Origin: Shinella sp. WSJ-2
GTDB lineage: Bacteria > Pseudomonadota > Alphaproteobacteria > Rhizobiales > Rhizobiaceae
NCBI RefSeq assembly: GCF_003432075.1
Contig: NZ_QWBU01000010.1
Coordinates: forward strand, 62,001-126,000
Length of the DNA stretch: 64,000 nucleotides
Direction of reading: 5' to 3'
The translations under genes were made by a program, and so were the position numbers. The notes below the pieces were generated by a model, which did not search any database, was not told where the DNA came from, and saw only the letters and a program-made list of their open reading frames with translations. This document shows positions 4,945 through 63,225 of the stretch, piece after piece (the stretch's first letter is position 1; every line of letters starts with the position of its first letter).

Positions 4945-5086
4945 CCTATTGTCTGCGGCGCGGCATGGTCATAGAGCAACTCCGGCCAAAGTGCGATGCG
5001 GTTTGTGCCCGCGTCTGCGCGATGACGCACCCCACAGGAAAACCGCAATCGCCACCCATATCCGGCGAGACAGCAAAGGAGAGGCA

Positions 5087-5719: not shown

Positions 5720-5761
5720 GGCCGGTTCGGTCGCATCGCTGGTTACCGAGTTGGGCGACGT

Positions 5762-5810: not shown

Positions 5811-5861
5811 GGCGGGCTTTACTTGGAACAAGGGCTCGTGATCGAGAGAGATTCTCATTCG

Positions 5862-5890
5862 GAAAAAAGGCCGGGGCATAACCCCGGCCC
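5862..5890 (-). terminator. Rho-independent terminator of preTA
   Basis: GGCCGGGG (5869-5876) pairs with CCCCGGCC (5882-5889) around a CATAA loop. Read on the minus strand the hairpin is followed by six T residues (plus-strand A run 5863-5868). It lies 7 bases after the preA stop codon. Confidence 0.85.
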
Positions 5891-5896
5891 TTTCGT

Positions 5897-7210: not shown

Positions 7211-7221
7211 GTCTCATCTCC

Positions 7222-8583: not shown

Positions 8584-8642
8584 GATTATCTCCCATTCGC
8601 GTGGGCTTTTTGAATAGGAGAACGGTAACTCAGCTTTATTTT

Positions 8643-8658
8643 TTTATCAAACGGTAAA
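8643..8658. promoter_or_regulatory. Weak RutR-like site upstream of preT
   Basis: TTTATCAAACGGTAAA matches the RutR consensus TTGACCANNTGGTCAA at 10 of 14 defined positions. It lies 60 bases upstream of the preT start, where repressor binding would make sense. The match is weaker than that at 3204-3219. Confidence 0.35.
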
Positions 8659-8701
8659 ACTTCAGAAAAAACGCTGCTTTTTCAGTGCCCGCAGCGGAAA
8701 T

Positions 8702-8714
8702 AAACATGATGTTT
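8702..8714. promoter_or_regulatory. Inverted repeat in the preT-smoC intergenic region
   Basis: AAACATGATGTTT is a perfect 6+1+6 palindrome, flanked by GGAAA/TTTCC that extends the dyad to about 8694-8716. It is followed by a second near copy of the GGAAAACAT half (minus strand). It is a possible operator for SmoC or for divergent control of preT and smoC. The rest of 8584-8838 is AT-rich promoter-like DNA with no gene visible. Confidence 0.35.
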
Positions 8715-8838
8715 CCAGTTATGTTTTCCGCTCGTCAACAAAGAGCCGTGAACTCATCTGTCCTTGCTGCGTCATCATATGAGGTTTGACAGGTGACTGG
8801 AAAAGATGCAGCAAATCAGGAGAAAGAAGGGGAATACA

Positions 8839-9792: not shown

Positions 9793-9926
9793 CCGGCGGC
9801 CTTTCCGCGCCCTTCTGAGCGCGTTCTCCACATAGAAATTTCCCATGCAATTCAATGGTCGCCTCATCGTCTTGTGCGGTGCAGCAACGATTGGTCGTTG
9901 ACTTCCTACGTCTGTTTGTGGGTAAT

Positions 9927-9952
9927 TGCTCATGAGCGAAGCAAATGCTCAT
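9927..9952. promoter_or_regulatory. Putative SmoC operator
   Basis: A perfect 10-base palindrome GCTCATGAGC at 9928-9937 overlaps the first of two direct TGCTCAT repeats (9927-9933 and 9946-9952, spaced 19 bases). They lie just upstream of the smoE ribosome-binding site. Position and spacing suit a SorC/DeoR-type regulator; binding is inferred. Confidence 0.4.
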
Positions 9953-9973
9953 AACTCTTCTGGGAGGAAGATG

Positions 9974-47611: not shown

Positions 47612-47655
47612 GGCTTTCGAGCCGTGTTGACAGCCTGGAAAAGTTCTGACATTTA

Positions 47656-47676
47656 TTTTCTCGACTGTCGAGAAAA
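47656..47676. promoter_or_regulatory. XylR operator
   Basis: TTTTCTCGAC and GTCGAGAAAA form a perfect 10+1+10 inverted repeat. It lies between the divergent xylR and xylF genes, 45 bases from the xylR start. Confidence 0.75.
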
Positions 47677-47781
47677 AAGTCCCGGCACGCCGGGAGGGGC
47701 ATCGAGGCAGTGTTATCGTGGCTGGCTGTTGATCGGGCGGGAGGTTCGTCCAGACGGCCGGTGTTCACTTGGGAGGATAAT

Positions 47782-48825
47782 ATGAAGTCCGTTTTGAAGT
47801 TGATGGCAGGGGCTGCCGTCATCGTTTCCCTGCATTCCGGTATTGCGCACGCCAAGGATCTCACGGTCGGCGTTTCCTGGTCGAATTTCCAGGAAGAACG
47901 TTGGAAAACCGACGAAGCTGCCATCAAGGCCGCTCTCGAGGCCTCCGGCGACAAGTACATTTCCGCTGACGCCCAGTCTTCTGCCGCAAAGCAGCTGACC
48001 GACGTCGAGTCGCTGATCGCCCAGGGCGCCAACGCCATCATCGTTCTCGCCCAGGATTCGGAAGCCATCGGCCCGGCCATCGAAAAGGCTGCCGCCGAAG
48101 GTATCCCAGTCGTCGGCTACGACCGACTGATCGAAAACCCGGCGGCCTTCTACATCACCTTCGACAACAAGGAAGTCGGCCGCATGCAGGCCCGCGAAGT
48201 GTTCAAGGTGAAGCCGGAAGGCAACTATGTCTTCATCAAGGGCTCGTCGTCCGACCCGAACGCCGACTTCCTCTTCGCTGGTCAGCAGGAAGTGCTGAAG
48301 GAAGCAATCGACGCTGGCAAGATCAAGAATGTCGGTGAAGCCTATACCGACGGCTGGAAGCCGGAAAACGCCCAGAAGAACATGGAGCAGTTCCTGACGG
48401 CAAACGACAACAAGGTCGATGCGGTCGTCGCGTCCAACGACGGCACGGCCGGCGGTGCGATTGCAGCCCTCACGGCACAGGGTCTTGCCGGCTCCGTTCC
48501 GGTCTCCGGCCAGGACGCCGACCACGCCGCGCTGAACCGCGTTGCGCTTGGCACCCAGACGGTCTCCGTTTGGAAGGACTCCCGCGAACTCGGCAAGCGC
48601 GCTGCGGAAATCGCAGCCCAGCTCGCCAGCGGCAAGACCATGGACGAGATCGAAGGCGTCACCACCTTCAACGGCGGTCCGAAGGGCGTCGAAATGAAGT
48701 CGGTCTTCCTCGCACCGCTGCCGATCACCAAGGACAACCTGAACGTCGTCATCGACGCCGGCTGGATTTCCAAGGAAACGGCTTGCCAGGGCGTTGCTGC
48801 CGGCTCGGTTGCAGCCTGCAACTGA
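47782..48825 (+). CDS. xylF: D-xylose ABC transporter substrate-binding protein
   Basis: A 347-residue family-2 (ribose type) periplasmic binding protein. Signal peptide [20 protein letters not shown]...AHA, then [23 protein letters not shown], the XylF-type start. [28 protein letters not shown] and [16 protein letters not shown] match the xylose-binding branch. GGGAGGATAAT precedes the ATG. Confidence 0.92.
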
Positions 48826-48859
48826 GTAGCGACCATCCGGTATTGACCTGACCATCAAC

Positions 48860-48890
48860 AAGCGCCGCAGCGGCTTCCGTTGCGGCGCTT
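48860..48890 (+). terminator. Intercistronic hairpin after xylF
   Basis: AAGCGCCGCA (48860-48869) pairs with its complement at 48881-48890, loop of 11. No T tract; probably an mRNA stabiliser or attenuator between xylF and xylH. Confidence 0.6.
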
Positions 48891-48982
48891 GCGCAAGATG
48901 GGCAGCGGGCGGAGGATGATGCGGCAAGACTCCTCGTTACGCTCGGACGACACGTTCAACAAAAGTGGGGGAACGGCAAACC

Positions 48983-50296
48983 ATGGCCGACATCACGACG
49001 ACCGCATCTGCCAATCGCGCGCGATCGGCAAGCGAGAACCCGGTGAAGCGCTTCTTCCGCGCCACCGAAATCGATACGCGCCTGCTCGGCATGGTCGGCG
49101 CATTGCTGATCATCTGGATCGGCTTCAACATCCTGTCCGGCGGGTTGTTCCTCACGCCCCGCAACCTCTGGAACCTCTCGGTCCAGACAGCCTCCGTCGC
49201 CGTCATGGCGACCGGCATGGTGCTGGTCATCGTCACGCGCAACATCGATCTCTCGGTCGGTTCCATCCTCGGCTTCGTCGGCATGAGCATGGGCGTGCTG
49301 CAGGCTGAACTCCTGCCGCAGTTGCTTGGCTTCAATCATCCCGCGATCTGGGTCGTCACGCTCGCCTGCGGCCTGCTGCTGGGCGCCGCGATCGGCGCGC
49401 TGCACGGCTCGATCATCGCCTTCCTCAACGTACCCTCCTTCATCGTCACGCTCGGCGGCCTGCTCGTCTGGCGCGGCGCCACCTGGTTCGTCACCAGCGG
49501 CCGCACCGTCGCCCCCATGGATGCCACCTTCCGCCTGATGGGCGGCGGCACCGAGGGTTCGATCGGCGCCACCGCGAGCTGGATCGTCGGCGCGCTCGCC
49601 TGTGCCGCCATCGTCGCGACGATCGCCAATTCCCGCAAGCAGCGCAAACGCTTCGGCTTCCCGCTGCGCCCGATGTGGGCGGAGTATTTCCTCGTCGCCA
49701 TCGGCTGCGCGCTGGTGCTCGGCGCTGTCGGGATCGTCAACGCCTATCCGTGGCCTGTTGCCATTGCCCGCAAGTTCGCGGACGCCAATGGCATCGCCTG
49801 GCCGGACGGCGGCCTGTTCATCCCGCATGGCATCGCCGTGCCGGTGCTAATCGCCATTGTTGTCGGCATCGTCATGACCTTCATCTCGACGCGCCTGCGT
49901 TTCGGTCGCTACGTTTTCGCGCTCGGCGGCAACCCGGAAGCGGCTGAGCTTGCGGGCATCAAGACCCGCTGGGTCACCGTCAAGATATTCGCGCTGATGG
50001 GCATTCTCTGTGCCATTGCCGCCGCCATTTCCACCGCCCGCCTCAATGCCGCGACCAACGCGCAGGGCGAACTCGACGAGCTCTACACGATCGCGGCTGC
50101 CGTGATCGGCGGCACATCGCTGGCGGGCGGCATGGGCACAATCGCCGGCGCCATGCTCGGGGCGCTTGTCATGCAATCGCTGCAATCGGGTATGGTGCTT
50201 GTCGGCATCGACACCCCGTTCCAGCGCATCGTGGTCGGTATGGTCCTCGTCGTCGCCGTCTGGCTCGACACGGTCTATCGCGCCCGCGCCAAGTAA
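48983..50296 (+). CDS. xylH: D-xylose ABC transporter permease
   Basis: A 437-residue RbsC/XylH-type permease with about ten to twelve membrane helices. [19 protein letters not shown] and the C-terminal [30 protein letters not shown] are family signatures. The longer length compared with RbsC is typical of XylH. GGGGGAACGG precedes the ATG at 48983. Followed by xylG after 14 bases. Confidence 0.92.
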
Positions 50297-50310
50297 CAGG
50301 AGTTGGACCA

Positions 50311-51099
50311 ATGACGGACACCACCCGTACGCCCCTCGTGGAGCTGAAGAACATCTCCATCTCCTTCGGCGGCATCCATGCCGTGGACAATGCCTCGGTC
50401 GATCTCTATCCCGGCGAGGTCGTGGCGCTGCTCGGTCACAACGGTGCCGGCAAGTCGACGCTGATCAAGATCCTCTCCGGCGCCTACAAGCGCGATGGCG
50501 GCGAGATCCTGATCAATGGTGAGGCCGCCGACATCAACAACCCGCGCGACGCCAAGAAATACGGCATCGAGACGATCTACCAGACGCTCGCCGTCGCCGA
50601 CAATGTCGACGCTGCCGCCAACCTCTATCTCGGTCGCGAGCTCAGGACCCCCTGGGGCACGCTCGACGACGTCGCGATGGAGGCCAAGACCCGCGAAGTG
50701 ATGGGCCGCCTCAACCCGAACTTCCAGCGCTTCAAGGAGCCGGTGAAGGCCCTCTCCGGCGGCCAGCGCCAGTCGGTGGCGATCGCAAGAGCGATCCTGT
50801 TCAACGCCCGTATCCTGATCATGGACGAGCCGACGGCGGCCCTCGGCCCCCAGGAGACGGCGCAGGTCGGCGAGCTGATCAAGCAGCTGAAGAAGGAAGG
50901 CATCGGCATCTTCCTGATCAGCCACGACATCCACGACGTCTTCGACCTCGCCGATCGTGTCTCGGTCATGAAGAACGGCCAGGTCGTCGGCCACGCCCGC
51001 ACCGAGGACGTGACGAAGGACGAAGTGCTCGGGATGATCATCCTCGGCAAGGTGCCACCCAAGGCCATTCCCGGCCCCGGCGCCATGCAGACGGCCTGA
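50311..51099 (+). CDS. xylG: D-xylose ABC transporter ATP-binding protein (single-domain)
   Basis: A 262-residue ATPase: Walker [10 protein letters not shown], signature [13 protein letters not shown], Walker [14 protein letters not shown]-loop [10 protein letters not shown]. coli XylG has two fused ATPase domains (about 510 residues); this one has a single domain, so it probably works as a homodimer. The single-domain form is common in rhizobial xylose operons, so it is not a truncation. Confidence 0.9.
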
Positions 51100-51120
51100 T
51101 CATACGGCCAGACCCAAAAC

Positions 51121-51155
51121 GAGCCGCCGGTATCCCCGGCGGCTCCCTCGTTTTC
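51121..51155 (+). terminator. Rho-independent terminator of xylFHG
   Basis: GAGCCGCCGG (51121-51130) pairs with CCGGCGGCTC (51136-51145), followed by CCTCGTTTTC. It lies 21 bases after the xylG stop. Confidence 0.8.
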
Positions 51156-51271
51156 AGGCGGCTGCTCTCGCAAAGCAAAAACAGCGCCCCTTTCAACAAT
51201 TTCCCGATTGAAGCCCGCCCGCACCTGGGCTAAGACCCTTCCATCGGACAGGCGAGTCATCGCCTTGGGAT

Positions 51272-51348
51272 GCACCCGTAGCTCAGCTGGATAGAGTGTT
51301 GGATTCCGATTCCAAAGGTCACAGGTTCGAATCCTGTCGGGTGCGCCA
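51272..51348 (+). tRNA. tRNA-Arg (anticodon CCG)
   Basis: A full 77-nt cloverleaf. The acceptor arms are GCACCCG and CGGGTGC, the D arm AGCTCAGCTGGATAGAG, and the anticodon stem TTGGA/TCCAA with loop TTCCGAT, giving anticodon CCG (codon CGG). The T arm has GGTTCGAATCC, and the 3' CCA is encoded. Confidence 0.97.
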
Positions 51349-51675: not shown

Positions 51676-52668
51676 TCAGGCGACGGAGATCTGGCGTTTT
51701 TCTTCGACGGATTTCACGGCGGCGTCGGCTAGCGCCAGGGCGGCGAGGCCGTCGGCGCCGGAGGGGGTGATGGTGGCGCCTTTTTCGATCGCGGCGATGA
51801 AGGCGGCGATCTCGTTGGCGTAGGCTTCCGTGTAGCGGGTCATGAAGAAATCGTGCAGCGGCGGGCGGGTGTAGCCGTCGCCATTGGCAATCTCGATGGA
51901 GACCGGGCGCTGGTTCTCGGCCGAGACGACGCCCTTGGAGCCGTGCACCTCGATGCGCTGGTCGTAGCCATAGGTGGCGCGGCGCGAATTGGAGATGACG
52001 GCCTGCTTGCCGGACTTGGTCTGCAGAATGACCGAGACGCTGTCATAGTCGCCGGCCTTGCCGATATCAGGATCGACCAGAACCGCGGCGGTGGCGGAGA
52101 CCGAGACCACTTCTTCGCCGAGCAGGAAGCGGGCCATGTCGAAGTCATGGATCGTCATGTCGCGGAAGATGCCGCCCGAACGCTTGATGTAATCGACCGG
52201 CGGGGCGCCGGGGTCGCGGGACGTGATGGTGACCATCTCCACGTCGCCGATCTTGCCGTCGTCGATGGCCTTGCGCACGGCCATGAAATGCGGGTCGAAG
52301 CGGCGGTTGAAGCCGACCATCAGCTTGCCCTTGGTTTCGTCAACCACCTTCATGCAGGCGCGCACGCGATCGACGTCGAGATCGATCGGCTTCTCGCAGA
52401 AAATGGCTTTTCCAGCGCGGGAGAAGCGCTCGATGAGGTCGGCATGGGTGTCGGTCGGCGTGCAGATCACGACGGCATCGATATCCTTGGCGGCTTCGAT
52501 CGCCTCGATGGTGCGGACCTCGCAGCCATACTGCTTGGCGATGGCGTCGGCGGCGGCCGGAAAGGCGTCGGCGACGGCGACGAGCACCGCGTCGGGATTG
52601 CCGGTTACGGCCTTTGCGTGAACCTTGCCGATGCGGCCGGCGCCGAGAAGACCAAATCTCACAGTCAT
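51676..52668 (-). CDS. idhA: Inositol 2-dehydrogenase (Gfo/Idh/MocA family)
   Basis: A 330-residue NAD-dependent dehydrogenase. Cofactor motif FGLLGAGRIGKVHA, EKP motif FCEKPIDLD (K95), and the inositol-dehydrogenase set IHDFDMARF (conserved His/Asp-His region) and SGGIFRDMTIHDFD. Oxidises myo-inositol or related inositols/inosamines to the keto form; MocA of the rhizopine pathway is in the same family. ATG 52668 has GAGAG at a good distance. The frame stays open far upstream, but that part is antisense-like shadow of the permease gene. Confidence 0.9.
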   Translation of the reverse strand: MTVRFGLLGAGRIGKVHAKAVTGNPDAVLVAVADAFPAAADAIAKQYGCEVRTIEAIEAAKDIDAVVICTPTDTHADLIERFSRAGKAIFCEKPIDLDVDRVRACMKVVDETKGKLMVGFNRRFDPHFMAVRKAIDDGKIGDVEMVTITSRDPGAPPVDYIKRSGGIFRDMTIHDFDMARFLLGEEVVSVSATAAVLVDPDIGKAGDYDSVSVILQTKSGKQAVISNSRRATYGYDQRIEVHGSKGVVSAENQRPVSIEIANGDGYTRPPLHDFFMTRYTEAYANEIAAFIAAIEKGATITPSGADGLAALALADAAVKSVEEKRQISVA

Positions 52669-52772
52669 CTTCATTCTCTCAAATAAGCCGCACGCTTGGG
52701 GACCATGCGGGAGGAGGGGCGGGGCGATGCGCTCGCCCCGCAAAAGCGCCGCGGCGAACCGCGAGGGTTTGG

Positions 52773-53792
52773 TTACGTCTTGCGCTTCTTCTGGCGGTAG
52801 ACGTCGACGACGACGGCGGCCACGATGATCACGCCCTTGACGATCTCCTGGTAGAAAGCATCGACGCGCAGGAAGGTAAAGCCCGAGGTCATGACGCCGA
52901 GGATGACGGTGCCGATGACCGTGCCGGTGATGCGGCCGACGCCGCCGGCAAGCGAGGTGCCGCCGATGACGGTCGCGGCGATCGCATCGAGTTCGTACAT
53001 CACGCCCATGCCGGCCTGGGCAGTCTGGGCGCGGGCGGCGGTGACGACGCCGGCAAGACCGGCGAGCGCACCGGCAATGGCATAGACCTTTACCAGATGG
53101 GATTCGACATTGATGCCGGAGACGCGGGCGGCCTGCACATTGGCGCCGATTGCATAGGTGAACTTGCCGTAGCGGGTGTAGCGCAGCGCGATGTGGAAGA
53201 TCACGGCGACGACGAGGAAGATCACGACGGGCCAGATGCCGGTGCCGATGAAATTGAACTGTTCCGTCAGGCCCGAGACCGGCTGACCCTTCGTGTACCA
53301 CTTGGAAATGCCGCGGGCCGACACCATCATGCCGAGGGTGGCGATGAAGGGCGGGATTTTCGTCTTGGCGATAAGCTGGCCGTTGATGAAGCCCGCCAGA
53401 AGGCCGACGCCGATGCCGACCACCACGGGCACGATGACCGGCAAGTCGGTCATCGAGGGATAGAGCGCGCGGGGCCATGTCGAGGCCTGCGCCAGCGAGG
53501 CCGTGAACATCGCCGTCATGCCGACGACCGAGCCGGACGACAGGTCAATGCCGCCGGTGATGATGACCTGTGTGACGCCGACGGCGATGATGCCGATGAC
53601 GGAGACCTGCAGGATGATGATCGTCAGGCGCTGTGTGTTCATCAGGAAGCTCTGGCCGACGAAAATCCAGCCGAGGATTTCGTAAACCAGCGCGATGCCG
53701 ATGAGGACGAGAAAGATGTTGAGTTCCGGCGGGAGCCGGCGGGCAGATTTCTGCGCGGCGCCTTGAGCCTGCGCGGCGGAATTCGTGCTCAT
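52773..53792 (-). CDS. iatP: Inositol-type ABC transporter permease
   Basis: A 339-residue RbsC-type permease with about ten membrane helices. GGIDLSSGSVVGMTAMFTASLA and [34 protein letters not shown] are signatures. GGGAGGTAATC precedes the ATG. Middle gene of the transporter set, 51 bases after the ATPase gene. Confidence 0.87.
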   Translation of the reverse strand: MSTNSAAQAQGAAQKSARRLPPELNIFLVLIGIALVYEILGWIFVGQSFLMNTQRLTIIILQVSVIGIIAVGVTQVIITGGIDLSSGSVVGMTAMFTASLAQASTWPRALYPSMTDLPVIVPVVVGIGVGLLAGFINGQLIAKTKIPPFIATLGMMVSARGISKWYTKGQPVSGLTEQFNFIGTGIWPVVIFLVVAVIFHIALRYTRYGKFTYAIGANVQAARVSGINVESHLVKVYAIAGALAGLAGVVTAARAQTAQAGMGVMYELDAIAATVIGGTSLAGGVGRITGTVIGTVILGVMTSGFTFLRVDAFYQEIVKGVIIVAAVVVDVYRQKKRKT

Positions 53793-53843
53793 GATTACCT
53801 CCCTAACGGCCGCTTGGCGGCCCTGATCTTTACAGGCCCACTC

Positions 53844-55382
53844 TCACTGGGCCGCCAGTTCCATCACCTTGACCTGCGTCGCCTCCGCCCGGTCGAGAAT
53901 GCCGGTGACGCGGCCCTCGTGCATGACCATGACGCGGTCGCTCATGCCGAGCACTTCCGGCATCTCCGACGAGATCATGATGACGGCGACGCCGTCGCGG
54001 GCGAGTTCCGTCACGAAACGGTGGATTTCCGCCTTGGCGCCAACATCGATGCCGCGGGTCGGCTCGTCGAGGATGAGGATGCGCGGATTGGTGAGCAGCC
54101 AGCGGCCGATCAGCACCTTCTGCTGGTTGCCGCCCGACAGGTTTTCGATGCGCTCCGACAGGTTCGGCGTCTTGACGCGCAGCTTCTTGCTCATCTCCTC
54201 GCAGACCCTGGTCAGTTCGCCCTCGGCCACGAAACCGTTCTTGACGAACTTGTCCTGGAGAACGGCGATCTGCATGTTCTCGAGAATATCGAGGATCAGG
54301 AGACAGCCGGTATCCTTGCGGTCTTCCGTGAGGAAAGCCATGCGGTGCTTGATCGCCGTGTTCGGGCTGTCGATGCTGACCTGCTTGCCGTTGATCGCGA
54401 TCGTGCCAGACGTCGCCGGCGTCACGCCGAAGATCGTCTCGGCGACATTCGAGCGGCCCGAGCCGACGAGGCCGGCAAGGCCGAGGATTTCGCCGGCGCG
54501 CACATCGAAGGAGACGTCATGGAACACGCCCTTGAGGGTCAGGTTCTTCACCGAGAGCACGACGTCGCCGATCGGCACCTCTTCCTTCGGGAACATCTGG
54601 GTGATCTCGCGGCCGACCATCATGCGGATGATATCGTCGCGCGTCACGTCGGAGGAGGCGTGGGTGCCGATATATTTGCCGTCGCGGAACACCGAGAACT
54701 CGTCGGCGATCTCGAACAATTCGTTCATCTTGTGGGTGATGTAGACGATGCCGATGCCCTGCGAGCGCAGATCGCGGATGATGGTGAAGAGGTGCTCCAC
54801 CTCGCGCTCGGTGAGCGCCGAGGTCGGCTCGTCCATGATGAGCACGTCGCTCTCATAGGAAACGGCCTTGGCGATCTCGACCATCTGGCGGTTGGCGACG
54901 GAGAGGTCGCGCACCTGGGTTTCCGGGTCGAGCACGATGTTGAGGCGCTTGAAGAGCTCGGCGGTCTTGCGGCGCATCTCGCCGTGATCGACGAAGCCGA
55001 AGCGGGTCTTCGGTTCTCGGCGAATCCAGATGTTTTCCGCCACCGTCATGAAGGGCATCAGGTTCAGTTCCTGATGGATCATGGCTATGCCGTTTTCCAG
55101 CGCGTCGAGCGGCGATTGTAGCCGGATCTTCTGGCCCTTCAGCAGCACCTCGCCCTGGTCGGGTGTGTAGATACCGGCAAGAATCTTCATCAGCGTGGAT
55201 TTGCCGGCGCCGTTCTCACCCATCAGGGCGTGCACCGTGCCGCGCTTCAGCCGGAACTGGACGTCGTCGAGCGCCACGACACCCGGAAATTCCTTGCGGA
55301 CACCTTCCGCGGACAGGAGATATTCGGCATTCGGAATGGCGCCGCTTGCGCGAACCGCGGCCATGGTGGTCGGACTGACCAT
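53844..55382 (-). CDS. iatA: Inositol-type ABC transporter ATP-binding protein
   Basis: A 512-residue RbsA-type ATPase with two tandem domains. The first has Walker [10 protein letters not shown] and [13 protein letters not shown]-type Walker B; the second has a degenerate P-loop (GLVGSGRSN), [15 protein letters not shown] and [29 protein letters not shown] precedes the ATG. Energises the IatP permease. Confidence 0.9.
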
Positions 55383-55486
55383 CGTCCCCTCCCTCCCGGA
55401 GCAACCTGAAACGGATCGGACGCGCGCACGCCTGCGTGCGCGCGTCCTGTATAACCTAGTCTAGCTGGTTTCGACCCTTGGGCCGA

Positions 55487-56416
55487 TCAGTTCTTCGCCT
55501 GGAAGTCGGCGATGTTGGCCGGGGTCACCAGCTGGAAGGGAATGTAGACCTTGGTCTCCACCTTCTCGCCCTTGGCGAGCTTGAGCGCGGCATCGACCGA
55601 GCCCTTGCCCTGGCCGGCAGCATCCTGAAACACCGTCACGTCGAGGTCGCCGGCTGCCATGGCGGCAAGGGCGTCCTGCGTGGCGTCGATACCGGCGACG
55701 ACGACGCTGTCCATCGAGCGGCCGGAGGCCTTCAAGGCCTGGATGGCGCCGATCGCCATTTCGTCATTGTTGGAGATGACGGCGTCGAATTCCAGACCGG
55801 CGGAGAGCCAGTTCGTCATGAGGTCGGCGCCCTGCGTCCGCGACCAGTTGGCGGTCTGCTCTTCGACGATTGTCAGGCCCTTGCACTCGTCGGTCGCGAT
55901 GACGTCCTTGACGTCCTGCGTGCGCATGCGGGCAGCCTGGTTGGACAGTTCGCCCATCATGACGACGACCTTGCCCTTGCCATTCAGCAGGCGGCAGACT
56001 TCCTTGGTTTCCAGCGTGCCGGATTCCTGTTCGTTGGAGGCCACGAAAGCCTGCTTTTCCGGCAGTTCGTTGATGTTTGCCGGTTCGCGGTTGACGTAGA
56101 CGAGCGGGATGCCGGCGTCTGCGGCAGCCTTCGAAAGGGCGGCCGTCGCGTCGGTATCGACCGGGTTGACGATGATGGCGCTGACGCCTGATGCGATGAA
56201 GTTCTGGATCTGACTCTGCTGCTTGGCGACGTCGTTCTGGGCGTCTTCGATCTGCAGCTCGACGCCATCGAGCGTCTTGGCGTAATCGGTCATGCCGTTG
56301 CGCAGAACGGTCAGGAAGTTGTCGTCAAACAGCGCCATGGAAACGCCGATCGTTTCAGCGTGGGCGGCGGTGGACATCATGACGGCAAGCGCCGACCCAA
56401 GAATGAATTTTTTCAT
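55487..56416 (-). CDS. ibpA: Inositol-type ABC transporter periplasmic binding protein
   Basis: A 309-residue family-2 (ribose type) binding protein. Signal peptide MKKFILGSALAVMMSTAAHA, then ETIGVSMALFDDNFLTVLRN. The stretches GVSAIIVNPVDTDA, VYVNREP and VVVAGIDATQDALAAM resemble inositol-binding IbpA; the rhizopine-binding MocB is in the same family. GAGGAGGAGAACG precedes the ATG. First gene of the transporter set. Confidence 0.85.
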   Translation of the reverse strand: MKKFILGSALAVMMSTAAHAETIGVSMALFDDNFLTVLRNGMTDYAKTLDGVELQIEDAQNDVAKQQSQIQNFIASGVSAIIVNPVDTDATAALSKAAADAGIPLVYVNREPANINELPEKQAFVASNEQESGTLETKEVCRLLNGKGKVVVMMGELSNQAARMRTQDVKDVIATDECKGLTIVEEQTANWSRTQGADLMTNWLSAGLEFDAVISNNDEMAIGAIQALKASGRSMDSVVVAGIDATQDALAAMAAGDLDVTVFQDAAGQGKGSVDAALKLAKGEKVETKVYIPFQLVTPANIADFQAKN

Positions 56417-56544
56417 GTCGTTCTCCTCCTCAACGTGGTGTCCGGTCGCACCACTCAATGATCCGGATCGCTTGCCCTTGCGGGCAGCCGGCCCTCCGCT
56501 CCTCCCGGGACGCAAAAGGCCAAAACAGAATAAACAAACCGCGA

Positions 56545-56561
56545 ATTCCGTATTGCGGAAT
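56545..56561. promoter_or_regulatory. Dyad in the ibpA upstream region
   Basis: ATTCCG (56545-56550) and CGGAAT (56556-56561) form a dyad, with a further GGAAT/ATTCC pair running to 56570. It lies about 130 bases upstream of the ibpA start and could be an operator for the LacI regulator at 57639. Confidence 0.4.
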
Positions 56562-56592
56562 GTTTATTCCATTTTCTGCTTATGGCGTCAAG

Positions 56593-56615
56593 CCCGTTCC
56601 ATTTTGTGGGACGGG
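56593..56615 (-). terminator. Hairpin between the isomerase gene and ibpA
   Basis: CCCGTTCC (56593-56600) pairs with GGGACGGG (56608-56615) with one wobble pair and a seven-base loop. It sits 54 bases after the isomerase stop codon on the minus strand. Confidence 0.45.
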
Positions 56616-56669
56616 ATTTCCGCCGAAGCGGGGGAAAAGGACGGCGGAATGCTCCGCCGCCGAAGATTT

Positions 56670-57476
56670 TCAGATGTTTTCGCGGATGAAGGCGATGCTC
56701 TCGGCAACGGCGGCCTTGGGATCGGCCACACCGTGGACGGCGGGCGAGAAGGGCTCGAAGGAGAGCGGGCCGGCATAGCCGGCGGCGATCAAAGCCTTGA
56801 TCTGGCTGGTATTTGCCAGCCGGTCCGCCGGGCCGACGAGCACACGGTGGCCGTCGCGCATGTCGGAAACCGATATGGCGGGGTCCTCGACGCCGGAAAT
56901 ATGCACGAGGCCTGTGAAATCGGGGAAGAGTTCCGGCTCACCGGCAAGGTGATGGTGGAACGTGTCGTGCACCAGACGGAATGTCTGTTCCCCGCCCACC
57001 GCCTTGATGGCTTCGACGGCTTCGCGCTTGGAGCGCAGCGAACAGATTTCGAAGCCGAGCGGCTCGACGAGGCCGATGATGCCGGCGGCCTGAAGCAGCG
57101 GCTTGAGTTCCGTCAGGGACTGGCGGAGGTTGGCCTGCCGCTCGCCATCGGCCTGGCCGGTGCCGTCGTTCTTCGGCACGAGCACGAGCGCCTTGGCGCC
57201 GCAGGCAGCGGCATAGTCGATCAGTTCACTGGCTTCGGCGGCGCGGGCGGGCGTCCACTCGTTGAAGCGCTGCAGGGCGTTGATCGAGATGATCGTGATG
57301 CCGTGGCGCTCGGCAAGCGCCTTCACTTCGGCGGGCGTCGTGCCGTCGAGGATGGCATTGCCATCGAGGTCGTTGCGGATTTCAACGGCGCTTGTGCCAA
57401 GCGAGATGGCAAGTGCGAAGAAGGCGTCGAGCGTGAGGGCGGGCGCCGTCATATGGTTGATGGCGAAAGTCGGCAT
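56670..57476 (-). CDS. TIM-barrel sugar isomerase, IolI/MocC-like
   Basis: A 268-residue xylose-isomerase-like barrel. VEIRNDLDG, ISINALQRFNEW, LVEPLGFEICS (metal Glu), LVHDTFHHHLAG (metal Asp/His), HISGVEDP and LSFEPFSP (Glu) follow the order of metal ligands in IolI (2-keto-myo-inositol isomerase). MocC of the rhizopine pathway is a related barrel. The ATG at 57476 starts MPTFAINHM. It would act on the keto product of the dehydrogenase. Confidence 0.8.
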   Translation of the reverse strand: MPTFAINHMTAPALTLDAFFALAISLGTSAVEIRNDLDGNAILDGTTPAEVKALAERHGITIISINALQRFNEWTPARAAEASELIDYAAACGAKALVLVPKNDGTGQADGERQANLRQSLTELKPLLQAAGIIGLVEPLGFEICSLRSKREAVEAIKAVGGEQTFRLVHDTFHHHLAGEPELFPDFTGLVHISGVEDPAISVSDMRDGHRVLVGPADRLANTSQIKALIAAGYAGPLSFEPFSPAVHGVADPKAAVAESIAFIRENI

Positions 57477-57638
57477 GGAATGGGTGTCCTCCGGTCTCGG
57501 GGCCACCGACAGGGTGGCCTCGCATGCACGCATGAGGATCGGGACGCGCTTGACGGTCGTCAAAGGCCAAGGCGGCGATGCCGCCCTCATTGCTGAAAGA
57601 TTAGCGACGAACCGTGATGGAATTCTCTCAAACGCTCG

Positions 57639-58670
57639 TCAAATATTTTCCGGCGTGAACAGGTCGAAGGGCAGGAAGGTCTGGCCGGGCACGGTATTTT
57701 CACCCTTCTCGATCGCCGTCACCATCAGCGAGACGAGCTCGCGGCAGAGCGCGGAAAGGGGGGTGCTGATGGCCATGGTGACGACATCGTCGACAAGGCC
57801 GGCCTTCGATTCCGGCGTCAGTTCGTTGACGATGAGTTGGATCCGGCCGGCAAAACCTTCCTCTCGCACCGCAGAGATCGCGCCCTCCATGCCGCCGCCC
57901 GCCACATAGAGGCCGACCAGGTCGGGATGCTGGGCGAGCAGGTTGGCGGTCGCCTCGTGGGTGATCTCGCTGGTGTCGAGATTGACCAGCGTGTCCAGCA
58001 CCTCAAAGCCCTGGCCCTTCTCGCGGAAGAAGGAGCGGAAGCCGATCTCGCGCAGTTCATGGCCATGGAAGCGGTGGCTGCCGACGAAGATCGCCACCTT
58101 GCCGGGACGCTTGGCGCCGCGCGCGATCATCCAGGCGGCGGTGCGGCCGACCTTCATATTGTTAAGGCCGATATAGCCCTGGCGCACGTCGATGGCGAAA
58201 TCGGACAGCAGGCAGAACAGCGGAATGCCGCGGTTTTTCAGGTCTTCCGCCATGGTCGTCGTGGCGGGATAGTCGGGTGCGACGACGGCAAGGGCCTGAT
58301 TGCGTGTCGAAAGCTGGCGCAGCATCTCGGTCATCGCCGCCGGCGTTTGCGCATTGATGAACTCGATCTGCGGCACGATGCGGGCAACCGTGCAGGCATT
58401 GCAGGCGATTTCGATCTCGCGGGCGAAATTCTGGTAGAAGGCCTGGTTGGGGCGCTGGAAGCTGAAGCCGAGGCGATATTGCGGCAAATCCTCGAAGACC
58501 CGCTGCCGGATGAGGCCGAGCGCGTGATAGCCGATGGCATTGGCCGCCTCATAGACCCGCCGCGCCGTCTCTTCGCGTACCTTGTGGCGACCGTTCAGCA
58601 CCCGGTCGACCGTTGCGACGCTGACGCCGGCCGCCTGCGCCAGATCCGAAATTGTCGGTCGCGATGCCAT
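57639..58670 (-). CDS. LacI-family regulator of the inositol/rhizopine-like locus
   Basis: A 343-residue LacI protein. HTH: TISDLAQAAGVSVATVDRVLNGRHKVREETARRVYEAANAIGYH. The sugar-binding domain is of the periplasmic-binding-protein type (QRPNQAFYQNFAREIEIACNAC; VGLYVAGGGMEGAISAVREE). GGAGAGAGCC precedes the ATG. It sits between the transporter/isomerase genes and the oxygenase operon and probably controls both. Confidence 0.87.
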   Translation of the reverse strand: MASRPTISDLAQAAGVSVATVDRVLNGRHKVREETARRVYEAANAIGYHALGLIRQRVFEDLPQYRLGFSFQRPNQAFYQNFAREIEIACNACTVARIVPQIEFINAQTPAAMTEMLRQLSTRNQALAVVAPDYPATTTMAEDLKNRGIPLFCLLSDFAIDVRQGYIGLNNMKVGRTAAWMIARGAKRPGKVAIFVGSHRFHGHELREIGFRSFFREKGQGFEVLDTLVNLDTSEITHEATANLLAQHPDLVGLYVAGGGMEGAISAVREEGFAGRIQLIVNELTPESKAGLVDDVVTMAISTPLSALCRELVSLMVTAIEKGENTVPGQTFLPFDLFTPENI

Positions 58671-58704
58671 GGCTCTCTCCGTGAAATCTTTCCATCAGCA
58701 CTGA

Positions 58705-58741
58705 ATGATAGCGAATGATGTAATTTGATGCATTCTATCAT
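58705..58741. promoter_or_regulatory. Nested dyad between LacI gene and oxygenase operon
   Basis: ATGATAG (58705-58711) and CTATCAT (58735-58741) enclose GAATG (58713-58717) and CATTC (58731-58735). This nested inverted repeat lies in the divergent promoter region and is the natural operator candidate for the LacI protein. Confidence 0.5.
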
Positions 58742-58830
58742 GGCAGGATTGAGAGATGCAAGCAGCAGCGCTATCGTTTGTCCATCAGATATGGCGGGTC
58801 CTCGGACAGCGCCTTGCGGGAGGAACAGCG

Positions 58831-59916
58831 ATGAAGCCGACGAAGCGGGACTACAGTCTTCTGGGGCGCGATGCCGAGGCGGCCGTTGCCAATGGTCTGG
58901 CCGCGGCCGAGTGGTACCACACCGATGTCGCGCGCAAGGATATGAAGGCGCTGATGCAGCGCAGCGATGCGCCGGCCCTTCGCGACACCGCGATCTGGCT
59001 CGGTGCGATGGTCGTCTCCGGCGCGCTCGGCGCGTGGTTCTGGGGAAGCTGGGCCGCCGTTCCGTTCTTCCTGATCTATGGCGTGCTCTACGGTTCGGCC
59101 TCGGACAGCCGCTGGCACGAATGTGGTCACGGCACGGCCTTCAAGACGATGTGGATGAACGACGCCGTCTACCAGATCGCCTGTTTCATGATCATGCGCA
59201 ATCCGGTGACCTGGCGCTGGAGCCATACGCGCCACCATACGGATACGGTCATCGTCGGCCGCGACCCCGAGATCGCCGTCATGCGCCCGCCGGACCTTCT
59301 GCGCCTCGTGCTCAACTTCTTCGGCATTCTCGATGCCTGGCATGCCGTCATCGACATGGTGCGCAATGCGGCCGGCATCATGAGCGAGGCTGAAAAGACC
59401 TTCGTGCCCGAAATGGAGCAGCCGAAGGCGATCCGCGTCGCCCGCATCTGGCTAGCCATTTATGTCGCGACGATAGGCGCCTGCTTTGCGTTCGGCTCGA
59501 TCCTGCCGGCGATGTTCATCGGCCTGCCCAGGCTCTATGGCGCCTGGCACCATGTCATGACCGGCTTGCTGCAGCATGGCGGCCTTGCCGACAATGTCAT
59601 CGACCATCGCCTGAACAGCCGCACCGTCTATATGAACCCGGTGAGCCGCTTCATCTACTGGAACATGAACTACCATGTGGAGCACCACATGTTCCCGATG
59701 GTGCCCTATCACGCGCTGCCGCGGCTGCACGCCATGATCAGGCATGATCTGCCGGCGCCAAACCCGTCCATGTGGCACGGCTACAGCGAAATGCTGCCGG
59801 CCTTCCTGCGCCAGCTGCGCAACGAGGACTACTTCCTCAAACGCGACCTGCCCGAGACGGCGCGTCCCTACAAGGAAGAGTTCCACGCCCAACCGGCCTT
59901 CGCCGCCGCCGAATAA
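58831..59916 (+). CDS. mocD: Fatty-acid-desaturase-fold oxygenase, MocD-like
   Basis: A 361-residue integral membrane di-iron enzyme. All three histidine boxes are present: HECGH (H96-H100), HTRHH (H132, H135-136) and HVEHH (H282, H285-286), with hydrophobic segments near 57-90, 205-235. With the Rieske ferredoxin and reductase just downstream it matches MocD of rhizopine catabolism, thought to oxidatively demethylate the O-methyl group. The ATG at 58831 follows GGGAGGAACAGCG. A true lipid desaturase is the alternative. Confidence 0.8.
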   Translation: MKPTKRDYSLLGRDAEAAVANGLAAAEWYHTDVARKDMKALMQRSDAPALRDTAIWLGAMVVSGALGAWFWGSWAAVPFFLIYGVLYGSASDSRWHECGHGTAFKTMWMNDAVYQIACFMIMRNPVTWRWSHTRHHTDTVIVGRDPEIAVMRPPDLLRLVLNFFGILDAWHAVIDMVRNAAGIMSEAEKTFVPEMEQPKAIRVARIWLAIYVATIGACFAFGSILPAMFIGLPRLYGAWHHVMTGLLQHGGLADNVIDHRLNSRTVYMNPVSRFIYWNMNYHVEHHMFPMVPYHALPRLHAMIRHDLPAPNPSMWHGYSEMLPAFLRQLRNEDYFLKRDLPETARPYKEEFHAQPAFAAAE

Positions 59917-59941
59917 TAGCTGATATCCTGGAGGAGAGACC

Positions 59942-60256
59942 ATGAGCGACAGTTGGATTGAAGTTTGCGCAGCCGACGACATCGACGAGGAGGATGTTAT
60001 TCGCTTCGACCATGCGGGCCGCACCTTCGCGATCTACCGCAGCCCCGAGGATACCTATCATGCAACGGACGGGCTCTGCACCCATGAGAAGATCCACCTC
60101 GCCGATGGCCTGGTGATGGATCACATCATTGAATGTCCCAAGCACAACGGCCGCTTCAACTACAAGACCGGCGAAGCCAAGGGCGCGCCCGTCTGCGTCG
60201 ACCTCAGGACCTATCCGGTCAAGGTCGAGGGCGGCACGGTCTTCATCAGCGTCTAA
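59942..60256 (+). CDS. mocE: MocE-family Rieske 2Fe-2S ferredoxin
   Basis: A 104-residue Rieske ferredoxin. The cluster ligands are C46-x-H48 (CTHEK) and C65-x2-H68 (CPKHNG). It carries electrons from the reductase to the oxygenase. GGAGGAGAGACC precedes the ATG; 25 bases after mocD. Confidence 0.9.
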   Translation: MSDSWIEVCAADDIDEEDVIRFDHAGRTFAIYRSPEDTYHATDGLCTHEKIHLADGLVMDHIIECPKHNGRFNYKTGEAKGAPVCVDLRTYPVKVEGGTVFISV

Positions 60257-60300
60257 AGCAATTCCAGCAAAAGTGTTGAGCGGTTTTGCGTCCGGAATCG
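60256..60300. repeat. Dispersed palindromic repeat, copy 1
   Basis: GCAAAAGTGT (60267-60276) to GGTTTTGC (60282-60289) with GCAAAA/TTTTGC arms, enclosed by an outer ATTCC/GGAAT pair (60261-60265, 60294-60298). A near-identical core occurs at 62659-62681. It sits inside the mocE-mocF gap. Such short repeats are widespread in Rhizobiaceae. Confidence 0.7.
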
Positions 60301-60328
60301 CGAAAGAACAAAGAGACAGGAAACCGTC

Positions 60329-61552
60329 ATGGCGAATTTTGTGATCGTCGGCGCCGGCGAATGCGGCGCGCGCGCAGCCTTTGCCCTGCGTGAAAAGGGT
60401 TTTGACGGCACGCTGACCCTGATCGGCAGCGAAACGCATCTGCCCTATGAGCGTCCGCCGCTTTCCAAGGAGGCGCTGGTGGCCGGCGCCGGCCCGAAAT
60501 TCGTCGCCGAACCGGAGCGTTACGTCGAGGCCAGCATCGATCTGCTGCTCGGCCGCACGGTGTCAGGGATCGACCGATTGGCGAAGCGTGTCGTGCTGGG
60601 CGATAGCATGGTCGTTCCCTATGACAGGTTGCTTCTGGCCACCGGCGCGCGTCCGCGTATGCTGCCGGGGGCGGCCCATGGCGGGCGCGTCCTTGCGCTG
60701 CGCAGCCATGACGATGCCGCGCGTATCCGCGACCATCTGGTCGAGGGGAGCCACATCGCCATTCTCGGTGGTGGCTTCATCGGCCTCGAGCTTGCCGCCA
60801 GCGCCCGCAAACTGGGCGCGAGTGTCACCCTTGTGGAAGGCCTGCCGCGGGTACTCACCCGTGGCGTGCCGGCCGAGATCGCCGAAATCGTCGCCAGCCG
60901 TCATGCCGCCGAGGGGGTGGATATCCTCTGCAGCGCCAAGGTGGCAGGTATGGAGGAGCGGGCGGACGAAGTGCGGATTTCGCTGGGCGACGGGCGCGTC
61001 GTCAGCGCGGACCTGCTCGTCGTCGGCATCGGCGCCGTGCCGAATACGGAACTGGCGGAAGCGTCCGGTCTGACGGTGGAAAACGGTATCGCCGTCGATG
61101 GCCTGCTGCGTACCTCCGATCCCGATATTTTTGCCGCGGGCGACTGCGCGTCCTATCCGCTGCCGCTCTATGGCGGCCGCCGCATCCGGCTCGAGTCCTG
61201 GCGCAATGCGCAGGAGCAAGGCCAGCTTGCCGCCGCCAACATGCTGGGTGGCAAGGATATCCATGCCGCCGTGCCGTGGTTCTGGTCGGATCAGTACGAC
61301 CTGACGCTGCAGATCGCCGGCCTTGCCGATGGCGCCGTCAGCACGGTCCGCCGCGATATGGGCGAACGCGTCTTCATTCTCTTCCATCTCGATGCCGAGG
61401 GCCGGCTGATCGCGGCGAGCGGCATCGGGCCGGGCAATGCGGTGGCGCGCGACATCCGTCTCGCCGAAATGCTGATCGCCGCCCGCATCCATCCCGATCC
61501 GGCCGCGCTCGCCGCGCCGGAGACCAAGCTCAAGAAACTGCTCGCCGCGTAA
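60329..61552 (+). CDS. mocF: Ferredoxin reductase (NAD(P)/FAD), MocF-like
   Basis: A 407-residue FAD-dependent reductase of the rhodocoxin/putidaredoxin reductase type. FAD motif FVIVGAGECGARAA, NAD motif AILGGGFIGLELAASARKLGA, and the C-terminal FAD-contact DIFAAGDCASYP. It reduces the MocE Rieske protein with NAD(P)H. Separated from mocE by 72 bases holding a palindromic repeat, yet clearly in the same unit. Confidence 0.88.
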   Translation: MANFVIVGAGECGARAAFALREKGFDGTLTLIGSETHLPYERPPLSKEALVAGAGPKFVAEPERYVEASIDLLLGRTVSGIDRLAKRVVLGDSMVVPYDRLLLATGARPRMLPGAAHGGRVLALRSHDDAARIRDHLVEGSHIAILGGGFIGLELAASARKLGASVTLVEGLPRVLTRGVPAEIAEIVASRHAAEGVDILCSAKVAGMEERADEVRISLGDGRVVSADLLVVGIGAVPNTELAEASGLTVENGIAVDGLLRTSDPDIFAAGDCASYPLPLYGGRRIRLESWRNAQEQGQLAAANMLGGKDIHAAVPWFWSDQYDLTLQIAGLADGAVSTVRRDMGERVFILFHLDAEGRLIAASGIGPGNAVARDIRLAEMLIAARIHPDPAALAAPETKLKKLLAA

Positions 61553-61572
61553 ACGGCGTTCCGGAGGACATC

Positions 61573-62367
61573 ATGAAGACCAAAAGACCGACCGTTGCCG
61601 ATATCCAGGCGATGAAGGGCAAGCGCCAGCTCACCATGCTGCGCGTCGTCACGCTGGAAGAGGCTGGAGCCGCCGAGCAGGCGGGTATCGACCTCGTCTC
61701 AGTGCCGCCCGCTCTGCTCGGGCCGGCCTTCCGCGAGGCGGCACCGACCGTATTTGCCTTTCCGGGCCTGGAATACGGCGATTTCATCACCGCCGACGAC
61801 TATCTGCGCGGGGCGTTCCAGGCGATGCGGGCAGGGGGCGATGCGGTCTATTGCGCGGCCGGCCTTTCCACCGTGCGGCGCTTGCGTGAAGAGGGCATTC
61901 CGGTCTGCGGCCATGTCGGCCTCATTCCCTCCAAGGCCACCTGGACGGGCGGTTTCCGTGCCGTCGGCAAGACGACGGACAGTGCCATGGAAATCTTCCG
62001 ACAGGTGAAGGCGCTGGAGGAGGCCGGGGCGTTTGCTGCCGAAATCGAGGTCGTGCCGGGCGAGATTGCGGCGGCGATCAGCGCCAAGACGTCGCTTGTC
62101 ATGCTCTCCATGGGCGCCGGCACGGGCTGCGATGCGCAATATCTCTTTGCCGACGATGTGCTCGGCCAGAACCGTGGCCACTATCCGCGCCATGCCAAGG
62201 TCTACCGTAATTTCGCGGCGGAATACGATCGTCTCCAGCAGGAGCGCATCGCCGCCTTCCGCGAATATGCCGATGACGTACGCTCCGGCGCCTATCCGGA
62301 AAACGGCCATCTCGTCGGCATCGAGCGGTCGGAACTCGCCGCCTTCCTTGAGCGTCTCGGTTCGTGA
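61573..62367 (+). CDS. Divergent PanB-fold protein (ketopantoate hydroxymethyltransferase-like)
   Basis: A 264-residue barrel related to PanB. The match is clearest at IPVCGHVGLIPSKATWTGGF (His114, equal to E. coli H136), AAEIEVVP (E159, equal to E181) and ADDVLGQNRGHYPRHAKVYRNF. But the PanB residues D45, D84, K112 and E114 appear replaced: LVGDS is LVSVP, LADLP is AFPGL and KIEGG is YCAAG. It is therefore probably not a normal pantoate enzyme. CGGAGG precedes the ATG, 20 bases after mocF, so it is likely part of the operon. Function unknown. Confidence 0.75.
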   Translation: MKTKRPTVADIQAMKGKRQLTMLRVVTLEEAGAAEQAGIDLVSVPPALLGPAFREAAPTVFAFPGLEYGDFITADDYLRGAFQAMRAGGDAVYCAAGLSTVRRLREEGIPVCGHVGLIPSKATWTGGFRAVGKTTDSAMEIFRQVKALEEAGAFAAEIEVVPGEIAAAISAKTSLVMLSMGAGTGCDAQYLFADDVLGQNRGHYPRHAKVYRNFAAEYDRLQQERIAAFREYADDVRSGAYPENGHLVGIERSELAAFLERLGS

Positions 62368-62426: not shown

Positions 62427-62648
62427 ATGAAAATCATTGACACCGACCACCCGTTCTACCGACCGCTCTGGCGGCGGGTGCTGTTGGTTGGGTCCTGCGC
62501 GGCATGGACGGGCGTCGAGTTCTACAACGGCGAACAGACCTGGGGCACGATCTTCCTCGTCGTGACCGCCTATGCCTTTGCCAATCTCATCCTGTTTTTT
62601 AAACCCTCCGACCCGGCCGCCAAGCCGCCGGAGGAAACCAAGGGCTAG
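62427..62648 (+). CDS. Small membrane protein (DUF3329-like)
   Basis: A 73-residue protein starting MKIIDTDHPFYRPLWRRVLL, with two hydrophobic segments (about 18-32 and 40-59) and a Pro/Lys-rich tail. The start resembles short DUF3329-type proteins common in rhizobia; this recall is uncertain. GAGGAGACG precedes the ATG. It lies 59 bases after the PanB-like gene and may or may not share its transcript. Confidence 0.6.
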   Translation: MKIIDTDHPFYRPLWRRVLLVGSCAAWTGVEFYNGEQTWGTIFLVVTAYAFANLILFFKPSDPAAKPPEETKG

Positions 62649-62721: not shown

Positions 62722-63225
62722 TTAGCGCGAAAGCCCGAGACTCTCTTCCACCTTCAGTCTTCGGATCGTCTCGTCGATCAGCATGTTAGCGATCTTCATG
62801 CGCAGCGTCGCATTGGCGCGCAAGTCTTCAGGCGCGCGGTCGGGATGGTTTTCTCGGGCGAAGCTGCGGCGGCGGGCGAGCAGGTCGTCCATACCTTCCT
62901 TGCCGGTGAGGGCAAGATCCTCGGCGATCTCGTCCGGTGCTGTGCGCATAAGATGCGGCGCCGGGAGAGGGGGCGGCTCGGGCGCCGGCTGCGGTGACGG
63001 GGGAACCGAGCGCGGCGCCTCATAGAGATCAAGATAGGCGGCGGCCGCCTGCGAACCGGAGACGAAGGTGCCGCCGGTGCCGATGCCGGCAAAACCCGAG
63101 GTCAGGCCGCGAATCTCGCCGGGGCCGTCGCCTTCGACAGCCTCTTCCGCGGCGTCCTCTTCAGCTTGGCGCGCCTCGGCTTTCAGCCTTTCCAGCACGG
63201 ATTCGAAAACGGTCATGCCGAACAT
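62722..63225 (-). CDS. Hypothetical protein with partial J-domain-like C-terminus
   Basis: A 167-residue protein. Residues 1-30 are charged, the middle (about 75-95) is Pro-rich (RSVPPSPQPAPEPPPLPAP), and the C-terminal part (about 115-160) reads DLLARRRSFARENHPDRAPEDL followed by ANATLRMKIANMLIDETIRRL. The HPD within helix-loop-helix is the J-domain signature that stimulates Hsp70. The first helix seems short, so it is a partial or divergent J domain. The role is unknown. Confidence 0.6.
   Translation of the reverse strand: MFGMTVFESVLERLKAEARQAEEDAAEEAVEGDGPGEIRGLTSGFAGIGTGGTFVSGSQAAAAYLDLYEAPRSVPPSPQPAPEPPPLPAPHLMRTAPDEIAEDLALTGKEGMDDLLARRRSFARENHPDRAPEDLRANATLRMKIANMLIDETIRRLKVEESLGLSR

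Follow-up and report, generated by a model that had tools for sequence, protein, structure and literature searches.

Gene content of the locus

The window analysed here is a stretch of 64,000 nucleotides from Shinella sp. WSJ-2 (positions 62001-126000 of contig C2, in a genome of 5.14 Mb and 29 contigs). This report concerns its positions 51676-62367, where ten proteins, from the inositol 2-dehydrogenase IdhA to a PanB-like protein here named PanL, were identified with Pfam and NCBIfam profiles. Half of the locus is ordinary, the other half is a known but unexplained arrangement, and one element is new, namely PanL with its one-carbon neighbours. We favour, with a probability of roughly 0.6, a reading in which two neighbouring units are functionally linked: an IolR-type inositol operon and a FixV-type methyl-inositol demethylation unit with one-carbon transfer to tetrahydrofolate. 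An earlier note on this DNA had described a single candidate island for the catabolism of rhizopine or another methylated inositol. The profiles recovered every gene that it had named, at the same positions, including a complete MocDEF chain adjoining the inositol genes; its gene list was incomplete, since the PanB-like gene, which lies within its coordinates, went unmentioned.

The inositol genes are on the minus strand. They comprise idhA (51676-52668, TIGR04380), a CUT2 sugar ATP-binding cassette permease gene (52773-53792, PF02653) that is IatP/IntC-like by position and adjoins the IbpA-type binding-protein gene, an ATPase gene that is IatA/IntB-like by position (53844-55382, PF00005 in two stretches), and the gene for a periplasmic inositol-binding protein (55487-56416), which identity and a tree place in the IbpA/IntA type and not in MocB. 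A GGAA-N6-TTCC site, the published IolR motif, lies 5' of the latter gene at 56557-56570. Next on the same strand are a gene for an IolI-like TIM-barrel isomerase in the Msi119-type position (56670-57476, PF01261) and a LacI-family regulator gene in the FixV position (57639-58670). The regulator matches PF00356 and PF13407, in agreement with the earlier assignment to the LacI type and not to MocR. Between these two genes, after lacI, is the palindrome TGAGAGAATTCCATCA (57615-57630, minus strand), and a second palindrome, TGATGCATTCTATCA, is found in the lacI-mocD gap (58726-58740, plus strand); both are proposed FixV operators. The plus strand continues with mocD, for a membrane di-iron oxygenase of the fatty-acid-desaturase superfamily (58831-59916, PF00487, three His boxes), mocE, for a Rieske-type ferredoxin (59942-60256, TIGR02377, with a CxH...CxxH motif), mocF, for a FAD/NAD ferredoxin reductase (60329-61552, PF07992 and the Reductase_C domain PF14759), and panL (61573-62367, PF02548), whose reaction is proposed below.

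Related loci

For the main survey, MocD-anchored loci were taken from other genomes, using the best 80 of 579 relatives, several of which end at contig breaks. Identity thresholds were 40-88% depending on the gene (at least 50% for LacI, 40% for the IolI-like protein and 60% for idh), and counts given as loci with room refer to those whose fetched stretch extends far enough for the gene in question. LacI of the same type was encoded in 78 of the 80 loci, mocE in all 80 and mocF in 78. The panL gene was found in 64 (59/72 with room) and the IolI-like gene in 52 (52/76 with room), so the grouping is more than chance. Within the fetched stretches the binding-protein gene was present in 18 loci and idh in 15, while purU was detected in 17 and folD in 8; purU rises to 20 loci when called genes are clustered.

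Gene order varies around this core. In Shinella the transporter and idh genes come after the LacI gene, whereas idh follows panL in R. rhizophilum (L068), purU-folD follows panL in L021, L031 and L040, and purU, folD, the isomerase gene and idh are all downstream in L051. The closest relatives, among the matches listed, are in Shinella (L001, 89-98% identity over the ten cluster genes). A more distant mocDEF set, with 51, 66 and 51% identity, was seen among sugar-oxidation genes on a Paenibacillus cellulosilyticus plasmid (L131, 8992-11798), where the stretch retrieved gave no match to PanL.

The transporter-idh operon

The product of idhA scored 425.7 bits against the inositol 2-dehydrogenase model TIGR04380 (cut-off 355), and its top match among solved structures was 4hkt, an inositol 2-dehydrogenase. 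It is the sole copy in its genome at E<=1e-60, a threshold at which each of six genomes tested had one or two idh copies. The binding protein is also a sole copy at E<=1e-60. It is 86% identical to a protein of S. meliloti 1021 pSymB (L209), presumably SMb20712, whose mutant is reported not to grow on myo-inositol (PMC2597717), and 77-81% identical to MocB of canonical moc loci. In a 40-row tree, MocB of the MocR-type loci formed one clade (100/99) beside the S. meliloti group, with the protein of the window outside it.

The GGAA-N6-TTCC motif has been described in iolC, idhA and ibpA promoters (PMC2597717). Four such sites occur in the 64 kb window against 1.06 expected, so the site at 56557-56570 is weak when taken alone. 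A cluster iolR-iolC-iolD-iolE-iolB was found on contig C22 of the same genome, where iolE was confirmed and the other iol names were read from the sequence by eye. The iolR-iolC gap of this cluster contains GGAATGTTCATTCC, and a near-identical site, GGAATGTTTATTCC, lies 5' of the binding-protein gene. Among the related loci, the exact motif was present in 7 of 18 binding-protein promoters, compared with 0.06 expected from shuffles, and in none of 74 lacI-mocD gaps.

The only IbpA-type protein, the only IdhA and a control motif in common with iolC indicate that the transporter-idh half is for ordinary myo-inositol catabolism. An IbpA/IntA-type protein with a CUT2 ATPase and permease, an idhA of the IolG model and the promoter motif are all found here, with no essential difference from the alphaproteobacterial IolR module of Caulobacter and S. 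meliloti, in which an ibpA-iatA-iatP type transporter and idhA have GGAA-N6-TTCC in common (PMC2597717). According to the same source, idhA of M. loti lies within the transporter operon, as in the window.

The FixV-type regulator and its putative operators

FixV of M. loti, a member of the LacI family, has been described as activating nifA2; its homologues in several rhizobia are divergent from mocD and often followed by the gene for an Msi119 epimerase, and an inositol derivative has been suggested as the signal (PMC3538637). The arrangement in the window, with lacI divergent from mocD and then a TIM-barrel gene, is the FixV-Msi119-mocDEF layout of that report, and by this arrangement the regulator would be of the FixV type. 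The pairing of FixV and mocD is thus already published; the words panB and operator do not occur in the text of that paper. Unlike the situation in the window, FixV drives nifA2 in M. loti R7A (PMC3538637).

The TIM-barrel protein had been called an IolI/MocC-like isomerase, of which the IolI part stands. Among solved structures it matched 2q02 and 4hgx (E 2e-40) and B. subtilis IolI 1i60 (E 3e-5). MocC was rejected as its identity: MocC of the canonical rhizopine locus of R. leguminosarum Vaf-46 (L095) passes the IolE dehydratase model, and the two proteins have no significant BLASTP similarity (best E 0.60).

The 15-bp palindrome TGATAGA-N-TCTATCA was found with up to two mismatches in 68 of 74 lacI-mocD gaps (the window and its genome copy included), compared with 0.03% of shuffled gaps. 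Of 46 loci, the window among them, 38 have a 16-bp form, TGATRGAATTCYATCA, with no more than two mismatches, in the stretch that separates lacI from the IolI-like gene. The consensus was taken from the loci counted, so these counts are descriptive and not a discovery. The site at 58726-58740 is the only match in its genome to the pattern fitted to it; the other palindrome has three matches there with up to two mismatches, of which 57615-57630 is the best. The sequence and position of these palindromes suggest that FixV may bind them. None occurs 5' of the binding-protein gene in the window; in the Mesorhizobium loci L073, L077 and L079, a FixV-like site with 3, 3 and 4 mismatches, respectively, is present there. 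The locus therefore has two units with two control signals, the IolR motif and the other palindromes, and is not one co-regulated island.

PanL, a PanB-like protein accompanying MocDEF

PanL falls below both curated panB cut-offs (111.4 of 207.55 bits for TIGR00222 and 130.7 of 272 for NF001452). Its predicted structure (model confidence pLDDT 78) has the PanB fold, with template modelling scores of 0.72-0.73 to 3vav and 1m3u. The idea that PanL is the panB of this genome was discarded, as panB sits on another contig.

For the residue counts, 92 PanL rows, that of the window among them, were aligned with PanB of the same genome, and E. coli numbering was assigned by motif and offset. The PanB positions D45, D84, K112 and E114 are replaced in PanL by P in 69, G in 86, Y in 88 and A in 73 of the 92 rows, respectively, while H136 and E181 are kept as H and E in all 92. 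We take D45, D84, K112 and E114 to be the Mg and keto-acid residues of PanB, and PanL has lost them while keeping the fold of PanB (1m3u, 3vav) and its H136 and E181 positions.

A match to PanL at E<=1e-20 was present in 106 of 297 genomes of the order, a figure whose weaker matches often resemble ordinary PanB (the genome's own panB matched at E 1.4e-23). In the vicinity of 40 hand-picked PanL-like genes, MocD was found in 23 cases, a di-iron enzyme of the FA_hydroxylase type in 9, either of them in 30, MocE in 27 and none in 7; clustering adds an FA_hydroxylase-type enzyme beside PanL in L200 and L202. MocD and the FA_hydroxylase-type enzyme of the Shinella genome have no significant BLASTP similarity to each other (best E 0.11). 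PanL thus tracks an oxygenase-MocE pair through sugar gene sets of several kinds. This suggests that its role concerns the product common to them, a one-carbon unit, and the neighbours purU and folD point to folate.

The continuation of mocDEF, of both the LacI and the MocR kinds, into panL, sometimes with purU and folD, is frequent and is new here. No report that connects mocDEF with PanB-like, PurU or FolD genes turned up in the open-access literature searched. Joint mentions of rhizopine and formyltetrahydrofolate deformylase were not found in the open-access literature searched, and a joint mention of rhizopine and hydroxymethyltransferase concerns other genes.

With spontaneous condensation of formaldehyde and tetrahydrofolate, the doubling time would exceed three weeks, and PanB has been discussed as a possible promiscuous catalyst of this condensation; deletion of E. 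coli panB (with ltaE) is reported to leave growth unchanged (PMC7073904). PanL may be a candidate formaldehyde-to-folate enzyme. The full proposal is that it would convert formaldehyde and tetrahydrofolate to 5,10-methylene-tetrahydrofolate, having arisen from PanB by loss of the keto-acid/Mg half-site, and would be the one-carbon partner of a widespread family of cassettes, in which MocE is combined with a di-iron O-demethylase of the MocD or FA_hydroxylase type and which act on methylated cyclitols and sugars; rhizopine loci would have borrowed such a cassette. This is a tentative proposal, on the unlikely side when taken as a whole.

Instead of being a one-carbon enzyme, PanL could act as a lyase or isomerase on the product, whether sugar or cyclitol, which we regard as a serious possibility short of an even chance. 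After PanB, the structures closest to the predicted fold include lyases, mutases and aldolases; besides the loss of the keto-acid/Mg site, PanL has invariant residues of its own, and it is missing from 13 of the 72 loci with room. Such a role fits less well with the association of PanL with MocD or an FA_hydroxylase-type enzyme amid differing sugar gene sets, and with its position next to purU in several loci.

Two further sets with FA_hydroxylase-type enzymes were observed. The Shinella genome has a second MocE-MocF set with LacI, an FA_hydroxylase-type enzyme, a TIM-barrel protein and a MYG1-family protein (L096, G000:C24:234000-249000, 4374-10020), and L049, which holds a LacI-mocDEF-panL-purU unit, also has a PanL paralogue (47%) that adjoins a gene for a di-iron enzyme of the FA_hydroxylase type and a weak match to LacI (2104-5235).

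Substrate of the FixV-type unit

B. subtilis IolI serves the D-chiro-inositol route. This route appears in a figure legend of PMC5504672. Pinitol and ononitol are described as widespread in legumes and as accumulating in nodules (PMC8730688). In Mimosa pudica root exudate pinitol was the most concentrated compound, at 145.14 uM compared with 0.73 uM for inositol, and in R. mesoamericanum STM3625 this exudate raised mocDEF homologues 1.53-2.11-fold, idhA 2.4-fold and a MocB-like transporter operon 4-4.7-fold, with myo-inositol genes also up (PMC5789663). The authors inferred possible rhizopine catabolism from this response. Pinitol could explain the same data without rhizopine. The joint rise of mocDEF and inositol genes in a pinitol-rich exudate makes D-pinitol, then ononitol, our first guess for the substrate. 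D-pinitol would yield D-chiro-inositol, which needs an isomerase, and would fit better than rhizopine. Demethylation of a methylated inositol, as first suggested, is thus still the preferred interpretation, but pinitol or ononitol now takes precedence and rhizopine is set aside.

We judge it unlikely that the FixV-mocDEF-panL unit has a substrate of another class, such as a methylated sugar, an N-methyl compound or an aromatic, and is next to the inositol operon only by coincidence. The different control motifs of the two halves would agree with this, as would the cob genes that adjoin the unit in 34 of the 80 loci (with nad genes on the other side in 22 of those 34) and the related MocD/MocE/PanL sets with other sugar transporters, e.g. 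in Rhizobium sp. Kim5. In Pseudomonas syringae, mocDEF adjoins a xylose isomerase gene, and aromatics were also considered by the authors (PMC5132102). However, idh, the binding-protein gene and the IolI-like gene recur beside the unit in several arrangements, its MocDEF resembles that of rhizopine loci, and both the signal proposed for FixV (PMC3538637) and the exudate response (PMC5789663) point to inositols.

Comparison with canonical rhizopine loci

MocDEF removes the methyl group of rhizopine. Its participation in rhizopine catabolism, and a rhizopine-inducible mocD promoter in S. meliloti L5-30, have been reported (PMC10107442). MocD of the window has the motifs HECGH, HTRHH and HVEHH, with histidines invariant in 22 rows, and MocE scored 179.4 bits against TIGR02377 (cut-off 136.15). 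The proteins are close to those of real rhizopine loci: compared with the canonical set of S. meliloti T073, MocD is 84, MocE 79, MocF 68 and PanL 85% identical.

In L095, with genes named by position and similarity, the order is mocC, a Gfo/Idh protein gene, mocA and mocB, with mocR divergent, and then mocD, mocE, mocF, panL and purU; its MocR passes NF052281 and its MocC the IolE model TIGR04379. The same moc set was found in R. leguminosarum RCAM2802 (L127, where the panL and purU matches are partial) and on pSymA of S. meliloti T073 (L128) and KH35c (L134), so that purU follows panL in four canonical loci (partial in one), whereas the window has no purU there. Synteny with these loci holds for the order mocD-mocE-mocF-panL, and the binding protein is of the same family. 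It does not extend to MocR, MocB, MocA and the IolE-type MocC, which in the window are replaced by a FixV-type LacI regulator, an IbpA/IntA-type importer, IdhA and the IolI-like protein. The binding protein is outside the MocB clade, and IdhA is 28% identical to MocA of L095.

Rhizopine as the substrate was rejected on these comparisons of regulator, binding protein, MocA and MocC. A locus for rhizopine (3-O-methyl-scyllo-inosamine) in which LacI takes the place of MocR is very unlikely despite the closeness of MocDEF and PanL to their canonical counterparts; MocR (at least 60% identity), MocB (at least 88%) and MocC (at least 60%) were found in 0 of the 80 related loci within the fetched stretches. 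The NCBIfam rhizopine binding-protein model NF052284 was uninformative, since the binding protein of a MocR locus itself scores 40 of 420 bits. Least probable of all is a lipid desaturase or hydroxylase role for MocD, whose membership of the fatty-acid-desaturase superfamily is set against a score of 35 of 500 bits for DesB, the sole desaturase equivalog touched, and recurrent neighbours that are sugar, inositol and one-carbon genes.

In a quick MocD tree of 61 rows, proteins of the MocR type appeared at two points, each time amid LacI-type rows from the same genera, and the deeper forks had modest support (two changes on the best tree, of which the starred branches force only one). This nesting is most simply read as acquisition of the cassette by rhizopine loci from operons of the LacI type.

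Proposed pathway

In the reading that we favour, the IolR-type operon would import inositols, oxidise the ring and supply the iolCDEB pathway, whose genes lie elsewhere. A methylated inositol would be sensed by the FixV-type unit, which would in response switch on mocD-mocE-mocF-panL and the IolI-like gene. Electrons would pass from NADH through MocF and MocE to MocD, whose di-iron centre would hydroxylate the O-methyl group, so that formaldehyde is released and the inositol set free. The one-carbon unit would then be taken up by PanL, probably with folate, to give 5,10-methylene-tetrahydrofolate. Conversion of the latter into formate would fall to FolD and PurU, whose genes are neighbours in related loci. 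IdhA would oxidise the freed inositol, and IolI would bring the product to the common inosose.

Several observations weigh against this scheme. No purU or folD lies beside the unit in the window, and the PurU matches in the genome, on contigs C6, C17 and C15, are all partial and under the cut-off, possibly because of assembly breaks; the formate branch is therefore not demonstrated for this genome. The IolI-like gene is missing in 24 of 76 loci with room and PanL, as noted above, in 13 of 72, indicating that neither is indispensable. The fetched stretch has no idh in 65 of 80 loci, some of which end early, the exact IolR motif is missing from 11 of 18 binding-protein promoters, and the palindrome consensus was derived from the loci used for counting. 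The exudate is a mixture and the rise of mocDEF in it is small (PMC5789663), no substrate or enzyme data were found for any LacI-type cluster, and the MocD model is too poor for use (pLDDT 46.9).

The operon is a concrete and widely distributed candidate for pinitol demethylation, for which the portions of the pinitol literature examined (PMC8730688, PMC5789663) name no bacterial gene. The rhizopine operon gains panL and purU downstream of mocDEF, and PanL with its one-carbon neighbours gives a known arrangement a testable mechanism.

Flanking regions

The GC content is fairly even over the window (0.60-0.67). Downstream of panL are a small membrane-like open reading frame (62427-62648) and another that is DnaJ-like by eye (62722-63225), both without a Pfam match and clustered only with L001-L004. 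Directly left of idhA (46319-51348) are a XylR-like ROK regulator gene, xylFHG-like genes and tRNA-Arg(CCG), with gene names assigned by eye. To the right of the window (L097), a LysR gene is followed by a transporter operon resembling ChvE/GguAB, in which dehydratase and aldehyde dehydrogenase genes also occur; these too were read by eye.

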